A stretch of 34,660 bases of DNA from a virus, in IMG/VR virus record IMGVR_UViG_3300017733_000017, positions 1-34,660 of that record; one strand, written 5' to 3'. Shown one piece after another: positions 9,829 through 15,411 of this stretch. The translations under genes were made by a program, and so were the position numbers. How positions within the stretch are numbered: position 1 is the first letter of the stretch; the number at the start of each line of letters is the position of its first letter. The notes below the pieces were generated by a model. The model was not told the origin of the DNA. It saw only the letters and a program-made list of their open reading frames with translations, and ran no database searches.

Positions 9829-11574
9829 TTAGTGGGTCTCTGCCCACGATTGTCCCACCTTGTACTCTCCGTCCAGTGGGCATTTAAGCGACATCCGATC
9901 TCCAGCAGCCTTGATACACTCTACGGCCAGCCAGCCTAGCTTCTCTGCTTGGTCCTCTTTGACCTCCACTTGAAACTCATCGTGAATATTACCTACAAAC
10001 TTGTACTCTATATTATGTATTGTAGCATACTCATCAAGTATCGTCAAGGACTTCTTCATTATTATTGCACCTGCTGACTGTAGAAGTGTATTCAAGGCGG
10101 CGTGTTCACTCCGCAGTACTAGTTTTCTTCCGTCGAGTCCTTTGAGGTATCCTCTCCGCGCAGATCGTGAAACCCTTTCGCGTAAATCTCGAAGAGACGG
10201 TGTGTTAGAGAGAAACTTCTCCTTAAGTTTTGCTCCGTCTCGCTTAGAACCTCCAACAATAGTTCCGATTTTGGCGTCTCCTGCGCCGTAGAGGAAAGCA
10301 TAGATAAAAGTTTTAGCGAGGTCTCTTGTTGCAAGTCCAGCAGCTTTTTGATTGGCTGTATGGACATCTCCATTTGTGACTTCATTTGTGTACTCCTTAT
10401 CATTCATGTAGTGGGCTAACATTCTCAACTCCAGGCCAGCGGCATCAATACCCACAAGCCTGTAACCTTTTGGTACTGTCCAACACTCACGGCATTCAGT
10501 ACCGTATGGAGAGTAAGAGGCGGGGACCTGTGCCATGTTGGGGCTGCTGTGTGTCATACGCCCCGTCACTGCACCGATAGGGTTGACCCTACCGTGGACC
10601 CTACCATCCTCCTCTACCGCTTCTATCCATGACTGCACCTGTGCCGTTCTCTTCTGTATCAGTAGATACTCTGCGATTAGCTTGGCCTCAGGTATATCAA
10701 CCCTGGATAAAACTCCTTCGTCTACGATGGCCTGTCCCTTCTCAGTAAACAACTTAGGCTTCCACCCAAAGAACTGTAGGTGACGGGCTATCTGTTGTCT
10801 TGACCCTAGATTAAATTCGGGAAAAGAAACTCTACTAAATGGACCAGCCACATCAGTATACCGATCCCCAAGAAACTTAAGCCCAACCACACTAAGGCTT
10901 CCGTCCTTGTTATATTTGGGAGTGACCTCCTTATCGAAGACCGCAAGAGGCGTGAACCTTTTATGAACCTCCCTCTCCACTTCCATGCTTCGCTGCTTAA
11001 GTTTTGCCTGTATATCAAACGCTCGTTCAACATCTAGTTCCCATCCATTGTTCTCCTGCTTAGTTATAATACGTTGCACTTCATGTTCTAGTTCTATGGA
11101 CTCTCCCTGAAACTCCTCCAGCTTTTCAGTTAGTTCAGTGTACAGCTTGGCAGTAACGTCCAAGTCTCTCTCGCAGTACTCAATCATCTCATCCGACAGG
11201 GTAGACCAGTCGTCGTGATCTCCCTTCCGAAACCCTAGTCTCTCCCCCCATGCCCTGAGTGAATGTCCTCCCTCCATCTGAGGGTTGTACAGTCGGGACA
11301 AAACAAGGGTATCAACTACGTTAGGCAGTGTAATTCCCAACAGGTCGTTCATTACAGGACTGTCAAACCCAATAATGTTATGACCAACCACAGTAGAATA
11401 TCCATTGATGTACTCCTGTATCTCTGTTGCGTCACTAAACGAAGGCGTAAGGAAACTCTTCTTGATCTTCGTCTCTAGGTCCATCGTTCCTATCATCCAT
11501 ATCCGCTCTATCGAAGAGGTCTGGCTGTTTTGTAAAGCGGTGGTTTCTATATCTAAGATAAGCGTCTGGGTCAT
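9829..11574 (-). CDS. T7-like family A DNA polymerase with 3'-5' exonuclease
   Basis: 581 residues. The N-terminal exonuclease has D8 and E10 (L-D-I-E-T-T), G-H-N-I-I-G-F-D (to D71) and Y133-C-E-R-D137. Polymerase motif A is G-I-D-A-A-G-L-E-L-R (D377). Motif B is R-D-L-A-K-T-F-I-Y (K421, Y425) followed by Y-G-A-G. Motif C is H531-D532-E533. Tyr at 425 is the position equivalent to E. coli Pol I F762 and T7 Y526; in published phage surveys Tyr or Phe there is linked to virulent lifestyles. It is shorter than T7 gp5 (704 residues), so the thioredoxin-binding insertion is probably absent. The start at 11574 follows AGAGGTGAG and is needed to retain exonuclease motif I. Confidence 0.95.
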   Translation of the reverse strand: MTQTLILDIETTALQNSQTSSIERIWMIGTMDLETKIKKSFLTPSFSDATEIQEYINGYSTVVGHNIIGFDSPVMNDLLGITLPNVVDTLVLSRLYNPQMEGGHSLRAWGERLGFRKGDHDDWSTLSDEMIEYCERDLDVTAKLYTELTEKLEEFQGESIELEHEVQRIITKQENNGWELDVERAFDIQAKLKQRSMEVEREVHKRFTPLAVFDKEVTPKYNKDGSLSVVGLKFLGDRYTDVAGPFSRVSFPEFNLGSRQQIARHLQFFGWKPKLFTEKGQAIVDEGVLSRVDIPEAKLIAEYLLIQKRTAQVQSWIEAVEEDGRVHGRVNPIGAVTGRMTHSSPNMAQVPASYSPYGTECRECWTVPKGYRLVGIDAAGLELRMLAHYMNDKEYTNEVTNGDVHTANQKAAGLATRDLAKTFIYAFLYGAGDAKIGTIVGGSKRDGAKLKEKFLSNTPSLRDLRERVSRSARRGYLKGLDGRKLVLRSEHAALNTLLQSAGAIIMKKSLTILDEYATIHNIEYKFVGNIHDEFQVEVKEDQAEKLGWLAVECIKAAGDRMSLKCPLDGEYKVGQSWAETH

Positions 11575-11881
11575 TGATTAAAGTCTCACCTCTGTTTAGA
11601 GCTTTGTGTTCTAGAGCGTGACAGTTCATACATAAGATAGCACACTTATCAGCTTCCTTCAAGACATTAGTTAAATATTTAGCTCTCCATTTTCTTACAT
11701 CCAAACCAAACTCTTTATCTTCGGGATTAAGATGATGAAAACAAAGTATGTCCGAAGGCCAGTGATCTTTACACAACTCACACGTACCTCCTGTCTTTCT
11801 TAAAATATAAGAGTCCCTTCTTGATCTCAGCCTTGAATGATGTTTTCTATCATAAGGATTTCTAGCAGGTACTTTAGGCAT
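11435..11881 (-). CDS. HNH endonuclease
   Basis: 148 residues with a zinc-HNH core: C34-x2-C37, F-H49-H50-L-N52-P, and C84-x2-C87-H88. The start overlaps the upstream stop by 8 bases. The last ~46 residues, after the catalytic core, overlap the first 140 bases of the DNA polymerase gene in another frame. It could be a packaging-associated nuclease, a host-DNA nuclease or a free-standing homing endonuclease; its place immediately before the polymerase gene fits the last. Unlike phages where HNH sits beside terminase, it is far from TerL here. Confidence 0.85.
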   Translation of the reverse strand: MPKVPARNPYDRKHHSRLRSRRDSYILRKTGGTCELCKDHWPSDILCFHHLNPEDKEFGLDVRKWRAKYLTNVLKEADKCAILCMNCHALEHKALNRGETLINDPDAYLRYRNHRFTKQPDLFDRADMDDRNDGPRDEDQEEFPYAFV

Positions 11882-14610: not shown

Positions 14611-14828
14611 TAGTCTGTACCTCCTATCTTTAGTTGATGATCCGTTAATTCTTCGAGCCTCTCGAATACACTCTTTCGGAGCCTCACGTTTATCTTGTGA
14701 CCTTCGGAACCCCCAGGCCAGTACTCAAGATAGACCCACTTCCTTCCCCTCTTCTTGACGTTGACTATCCTGTAGCCAGAGCCTATCCGTGGTGCCTCAT
14801 CAGCAAACCATATAGCTTTACGAGTCAT
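14610..14828 (-). CDS. Small basic hypothetical protein
   Basis: 72 residues from ATG 14828 after AGAGGTGAGC; a GTG two codons upstream is less likely. A beta-rich W-x-Y-L-E-Y-W-P-G-G turn is followed by a basic helix. It overlaps the end of the upstream gene by 11 bases and the next start by one. No family recognised. Confidence 0.65.
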   Translation of the reverse strand: MTRKAIWFADEAPRIGSGYRIVNVKKRGRKWVYLEYWPGGSEGHKINVRLRKSVFERLEELTDHQLKIGGTD

Positions 14829-14991
14829 GCTCACCTCTCATGTATTCCTTGATCTCCTTATCCGCATCAGTAGCAGACAGGGTACGCTTGCGGGACCTGA
14901 AGGCTTTGGGGTGATAGTACTTATCCATCACAACCTTCTCTGGATTCCTCCGATTCTTTGGAGAAGACCGCCTCTTGTTCTTGGTAGACAT
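14818..14991 (-). CDS. Small basic protein downstream of the structured element
   Basis: A 57-residue ORF with a strong AAGGAAGGAAGG ribosome site and a palindrome copy 18 nt upstream. The N-terminus is very basic (K-N-K-R-R-S-S-P-K-N-R-R-N-P) and the C-terminus is acidic and helical. No family recognised. It is the first gene after the intergenic structured element at 15027-15153. Confidence 0.65.
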   Translation of the reverse strand: MSTKNKRRSSPKNRRNPEKVVMDKYYHPKAFRSRKRTLSATDADKEIKEYMRGEHDS

Positions 14992-15009: not shown

Positions 15010-15024
15010 ATGGGACCATCCCAG
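15010..15024. promoter_or_regulatory. Palindrome copy 3, next to structured element
   Basis: ATGGGACCATCCCAG. It lies 18 nt before the start at 14991 and 2 nt from the edge of the large inverted repeat at 15027-15153. Confidence 0.7.
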
Positions 15025-15026
15025 AT

Positions 15027-15153
15027 ATTCTTAAGGTTGAGAGTGTCACCCCTGTACGGCCTCCACACAAGGTAGAGAGGTAAGGCCTTTGTGCTATGAG
15101 GTCTCGCTCACCTAGTGCTAGGTTCCCCCCATGACACTCTCAGTCTTAAGAAT
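15027..15153 (+). ncRNA. Candidate structured RNA, multi-branched, closed by a 22-bp stem
   Basis: 15027-15048 pairs with 15132-15153 over 22 positions. As + strand RNA the three central pairs are G-U, U-G and U-A, so the helix is unbroken; as - strand RNA two of them become mismatches. Inside lie a 7-bp hairpin arm (66-72 with 86/87-93 of the 15000 block, again with a G-U only on +), a weak U-G-A-G/C-U-C-A arm (15097-15110) and A-C-C-U-A/U-A-G-G-U around a G-U-G-C loop (15110-15123). An alternative G-G-C-C-U/A-G-G-C-C pairing (15058-62/15083-87) competes with the first arm. It has no credible ORF and no tRNA T-loop consensus. Identity unknown. Confidence 0.55.
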
Positions 15154-15213
15154 ACCTAGGAAATAACTTTAATGAATATATAAAGGATTAATTCCCTAGG
15201 CTTCTTAAGTATT

Positions 15214-15411
15214 CTATAGATCATTCTCCTCATTGTCAAGCGGAATCTTTGAGATAATATTAACATCGTCTATGTACTCAAAGTCCTCCGCTACCGCCTC
15301 ACCTATTGAACCCATGCACTTTCCGCATGTGTCAAGAGGTAAACCTGTGAACAGATCACGCTTAAGTAATTCTCCGTCCTTTAGTTTAGCGTCACAAATT
15401 TTACATCTCAT
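15214..15411 (-). CDS. Small zinc-ribbon protein
   Basis: 65 residues with two Cys knuckles, C3-x2-C6 and C29-x2-C32, at a spacing that fits one zinc ribbon, then an acidic C-terminus. The start follows AAAGGAAAAG. Such compact early phage proteins often bind host enzymes, but no family is recognised here. Confidence 0.65.
   Translation of the reverse strand: MRCKICDAKLKDGELLKRDLFTGLPLDTCGKCMGSIGEAVAEDFEYIDDVNIISKIPLDNEENDL

Follow-up and report, generated by a model that had tools for sequence, protein, structure and literature searches.

Genomic context of the element

The window, by which we mean the whole 34,660-nt stretch of viral DNA that was analysed (IMG/VR record IMGVR_UViG_3300017733_000017), carries a 123-nt direct repeat shared by its two ends, suggesting that it is probably a complete genome. 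Its source is probably a marine phage of podovirus-like type whose polymerase belongs to the A family; among isolates, Pelagibacter phages have the closest polymerases (~53% at the amino acid level). The element studied here sits within a 222-nt gap separating two minus-strand ORFs, a downstream gene for a 57-aa basic protein (14818-14991) and an upstream gene for a 65-aa Cys-rich protein (15214-15411), both on the same strand as the element; the gap location and the minus-strand surroundings described in the original prediction were thus confirmed. Upstream of the element on its own strand lies a sigma70-like promoter, TTGACA-17-TAGAAT (11/12; 15211-15239, minus strand), whose context is kept in relatives. 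The promoter is followed by an AT-rich inverted repeat, CTTAAG..CCTAGG..CCTAGG..CTTAAG (15145-15209, minus strand), which is conserved across relatives and whose distal CTTAAG is the insertion point of the element. The palindrome TGGGACCATCCCA (TGGGA..TCCCA; 15011-15023), one of five copies, adjoins the element, as had been noticed from the sequence, and is a separate feature.

Several other motifs were observed around this locus. A TTGACA-N17-TATAGAAT-like promoter with an immediate AT-rich inverted repeat bearing CTTAAG-like ends occurs at ~19 related loci, including window 15145-15239 (minus strand), L004 3458, L005 3775, L006 3534, L010 4089, L018 2785 and L045 2115. This pair resembles a T7-style promoter plus AT-rich origin, or an operator, and is kept in relatives with or without the element; in the window (15145-15239) it is a likelier recognition site for replication than the element, for which that role had been suggested as one possibility. 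CTGGGA..TCCCAG mini-palindromes occur in the window (9807, 13485, 15006, 16347 and 17805) and in L004-L023; many early genes have one immediately ahead of their ribosome-binding site, and one lies inside the primase-helicase gene, shortly ahead of an internal ATG. They measure 12 or 13 bp owing to a one-base difference at the centre, and this variation fits an RNA hairpin better than it does an operator. Between the polymerase and helicase genes, an ORF at 11435-11881 (minus strand) appeared HNH endonuclease-like by its translation and may encode a homing endonuclease.

Arms at 15026-15048 and 15132-15154 are part of the best inverted repeat of the window, which ranked 1 of 72 pairs (arms 15019-15048/15132-15161, 30 nt, 87% complementary, 83 nt between). 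RNA folding of 15020-15160 was compared with that of shuffled sequences, giving z scores of -4.8 for the plus strand and -5.8 for the minus strand, and 0 of 200 shuffles were as good. The fold outdid the shuffles on both strands, showing that the structure is not due to chance and bearing out the long terminal stem around ~83 nt that had been described. ARAGORN predicted no tRNA or tmRNA at the element, and a search with the covariance models of Rfam 15 (4227 families) returned no family at the gathering threshold in the window; across the window, L084 and L089, Rfam 15 gave weak, inconsistent, chance-level matches only.

Homologues in other phage lineages

The search for homologues began with a primase search that yielded 80 related loci. 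Three contigs (L001-L003) were nearly identical to the window and contained the element, and a short, weak similarity (75% across 52 nt) led to L053 and L055, where a related structure is located between the SSB and primase genes. L008, L084, L089 and L091 were added by local and collection pattern searches. The element is present in four lineages besides that of the window (L008; L053/L055; L089/L091; L084). The window copy stands furthest from the rest (68-69% to each), and four of the five lineages are at least 87% alike between lineages over the element.

Six sequences were used to build a covariance model, which recovered exactly the known copies, with scores of 104.9-136.5 bits; seed members match such a model by construction, and the informative part is the absence of matches elsewhere. 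No other convincing match was obtained among 86 sources, 38 whole records or 16 extra loci. Eight of the 38 whole records were positive, with one copy apiece, and the remaining 30 had none. Scans of viral contigs with other patterns added no members, and the other pattern-scan matches there, mostly within coding sequence, were dropped as chance. Isolated phages and plasmids gave no DNA match to the element. No cellular copy was detected in cellular genomes with two specific patterns, which are blind to divergent copies: one pattern had 0 exact matches and the second had 4, none supported by the covariance model. Among the titles and abstracts listed by literature searches, none describes the element.

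A possible conserved hairpin motif, GGGTC..GGGGGAGCC..AAGAAATCCCCC, was seen in the SSB-primase gap of L030, L045, L046, L048, L054, L059 and L063, where it fills the gap position that holds the element in L053 and L055.

Conserved structure and its strand

Comparison of the homologues defined a candidate structured-RNA element of 108 nt (15036-15143, minus strand; cmsearch match 15029-15145, 104.9 bits) that is absent from L004, L005 and L006. On the minus strand, it is closed by helix P1 (5' arm 15131-15142; 3' arm 15038-15049), which was delineated by RNAalifold and covariation and in which 6 of 12 pairs have changed on both sides. P1 encloses the hairpin P2 (ACCUAGCACUAGGU; 15110-15123), whose length varies among homologues, being tight in L008 and 26 nt longer through an extension in L053, L055 and L089; the helix P3 (15083-15108), with a conserved loop of homologue consensus AAUGUCCYGAUAGCAACAA; and the hairpin P4 (CCUUR...YAGGG; 15050-15072), with one A-U to G-C compensatory change. 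A longer P3 (GGUG/UACC) or P2 plus an optional P5 (AGGGG/CCUCU) are both nearly invariant, and either could form. Sequence conservation is higher in the interior of the element than in its repeat arms.

Two-sided changes were found in 8 of 30 pairs, P5 included, a level that 0 of 500 shuffles reached, and 99.4% of 180 cells were paired compared with 40-60% once the partners were slid. Such compensatory base changes across homologues (8 pairs) support membership as a structured RNA. Since only five lineages are represented and four of them are closely alike, the covariation comes down to a small number of events, most of them in P1 and most contributed by the divergent window copy. The suspected structured noncoding RNA is supported by the conservation, the covariation and the presence at several loci, and the covariance comparison suggested with it did find the structure kept in related phage contigs (8 covarying pairs). 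The proposed pair of mutually exclusive pairings fared less well: both are complete in the window (5/5 and 7/7 pairs) but degraded in every homologue (2/5 and 2-3/7), and they were dropped as a conserved feature.

We are highly confident that the structured RNA is on the minus strand. Read on that strand, P1-P4 contain 16 G-U cells and 0 A-C cells, so a plus-strand reading would hold mismatches at these wobbles. The conserved strand was also the strand of the flanking genes in every context and lineage. A U-rich tract directly follows the 3' arm of P1 in L008, L053, L055, L084 and L089, and none follows it in the window; the stem that precedes the U tract on the RNA strand encloses a loop of ~80-115 nt, unlike the loop of a classical terminator hairpin. 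No convincing promoter of its own was identified beside the element in L053, L055 or L084. The original prediction had the element transcribed opposite to its neighbours, which conflicts with the strand of the homologues and with G-U pairs confined to the minus strand in the conserved helices; the U tract in four lineages and the minus-strand sigma70-like promoter also speak against it. Of the plus-only G-U pairs that it cited in two helices, the comparison covered one set, two adjacent GT/GT pairs (G-U on plus, A-C on minus); these do exist, but they sit where the element meets the flanking sequence and not within the conserved P1. A plus-strand RNA was accordingly rejected on the wobble-pair asymmetry and the orientation relative to genes.

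Insertion and lateral distribution

L004, L005 and L006, whose primases are 99, 98 and 94% identical in amino acids to that of the window, have an empty, uninterrupted site. Where these relatives are uninterrupted, the window has 108 nt (15036-15143) between two 7-nt TCTTAAG direct repeats (15029-15035 and 15144-15150), which resemble a target-site duplication when compared with the empty sites. Loss through recombination between the repeats could also have produced the empty site; gain is the simpler account, since the remaining relatives also lack the element there. The flanks of the copies in other lineages showed no clear duplication. Hairpins lie directly 5' of the element in L084, L008 and the window; they are weak in L053/L055 and missing in L089, and an insertion specificity for them is therefore not claimed.

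The copies occupy different surroundings. In L008 the element is in the same gap as in the window, on the opposite side of the palindrome; in L053 and L055 it precedes the primase gene, and in L089 and L091 a phrog_624 gene. L084 is a fragment of a temperate-type, lambda-like phage with regulator, lambda O-like and RecE-like genes. The downstream genes accordingly vary (small basic protein, primase, phrog_624 protein, Cys-rich protein), with the same kind common only to the window and L008, and these differences suggest that the element is not tied to one downstream gene. The L008 and L084 copies are 91.3% identical. Between L053 and L089 the element is 98.5% identical and the primases 53.0% (nucleotides), and L054 is without the element although its primase is 95.9-96.6% identical in nucleotides to those of L053/L055. 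These comparisons make it very likely that the element was acquired laterally.

Exchange among these phages extends to other early genes. The phrog_624 'DNA binding protein' genes of L008 (877-1350), L055 (696-1169) and L089 (2680-3192) are 85-87% identical in nucleotides, whereas the primases of the same three are just 53-61% identical, which indicates strong exchange of early genes. The lateral spread may thus reflect ordinary recombination rather than mobility of the element's own.

Interpretation and alternative explanations

The reading that best fits is a laterally exchanged RNA, released from early transcripts and acting in trans; taken whole, we put it at about an even chance, and the choice of trans over cis action is by itself similarly balanced. 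A released RNA functioning on its own would account for the changing neighbours, the conserved single-stranded core, the sense orientation and the stem with U residues. A start codon lies a short way downstream of every copy, a placement that would fit a cis regulator too. From the sequence, we infer transcription, release, trans action and target as follows. The minus-strand RNA would consist of the closing helix P1, the hairpins P2 and P4 and the helix P3 with its conserved loop, encoded by an element that has been exchanged among marine phages and presumably entered the source phage between two early genes. Early transcripts would contain it, and in the window they would start from the TTGACA-TAGAAT promoter that lies ~70 nt upstream of the element. 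Its release as a discrete RNA of ~110-140 nt would probably follow; most members would rely for this on termination, brought about by the P1 stem and U tract, and the window copy, which has no U tract, perhaps on RNase cleavage of the long stem. The freed RNA may act in trans on a factor common to the hosts of these phages.

A cis-acting leader or intercistronic RNA of the minus strand, governing the transcription or stability of its early mRNA, is a possible though less probable account. It could be an attenuator with P1 and the U tract as a regulated terminator, an RNA of the HK022 put type that causes processive antitermination, or a hairpin for processing or stability. Its constant sense orientation immediately upstream of an early-region gene, the stem and U-rich tract in four lineages and the strong promoter close upstream in the window and L008 would all be expected of such an RNA; however, the downstream genes differ among lineages, the element is in mid-operon position in L053, L055 and L089, close relatives manage without it, and a terminator ahead of the primase gene would require relief. 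Unlikely, in our estimation, is that the released RNA belongs to an autonomous, RNA-defined mobile unit of ~108 nt without a protein gene, which would insert precisely from P1 to P1, with duplication of a short target, into the early operons of phages unrelated to one another and serve a trans function (e.g. counter-defence or host-factor capture).

The strand asymmetry of P1-P4, with G-U cells and no A-C cells, together with the single copy in each positive record and the lack of any spread into multiple copies, makes an element acting only as DNA less likely. A MITE-like or recombination-site palindrome, in which the inverted repeat serves mobility or DNA binding, would explain the terminal inverted repeat, the 7-nt direct repeats, the precise empty site and the occurrence in unrelated phages; yet the interior is better conserved than the repeat arms, the orientation is fixed relative to genes and no adjacent transposase was found, and we consider it improbable. 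The plus-strand antisense RNA or switch proposed at the outset is highly improbable: set against its stable fold (z -4.8) and the two junction pairs that are G-U solely on plus are the A-C mismatches that the homologues would carry, the lack of conservation of the switch pairings and, among the matches listed, the absence of a promoter-like site on the plus strand shortly upstream.

Significance and relation to known systems

The element would represent a new family among the structured RNAs of phages, unusual in its lateral distribution, and it had no match in the resources searched. Phage noncoding RNAs are poorly catalogued, and this one is missing from Rfam and occurs in five or more phage lineages, one of which is an unrelated phage of temperate type. 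In several pairs of phages it is conserved far beyond the carrier genomes, a pattern suggesting that the RNA is useful or spreads itself; a natural test of its effect is offered by near-identical phages of which some have it and others do not.

Phage and prophage small RNAs carried as morons are similarly sporadic and laterally acquired and share the 3' stem and U tract with the copies of four lineages; the present element differs in lacking a convincing promoter of its own in L053, L055 and L084, and its expression is predicted from sequence. HK022 put, likewise a small structured RNA of a phage early transcript, is located just behind the early promoters, whereas the positions of this element vary; sequence relation between the two was compared through Rfam only. 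MITE-like elements are also ~110 bp long, with terminal inverted repeats, short flanking direct repeats such as those of the window copy and no protein, and differ from the present element in its RNA-type conserved interior, fixed orientation and single copy. Comparative genomics of metagenomes has yielded 104 candidate structured RNA motifs (PMC2864571). These motifs resemble our element in their covarying structure, marine metagenomic origin and function not yet known, and the element is set apart from them by its sporadic occurrence in phages, its insertion at an empty site and its lack of an Rfam 15 match.
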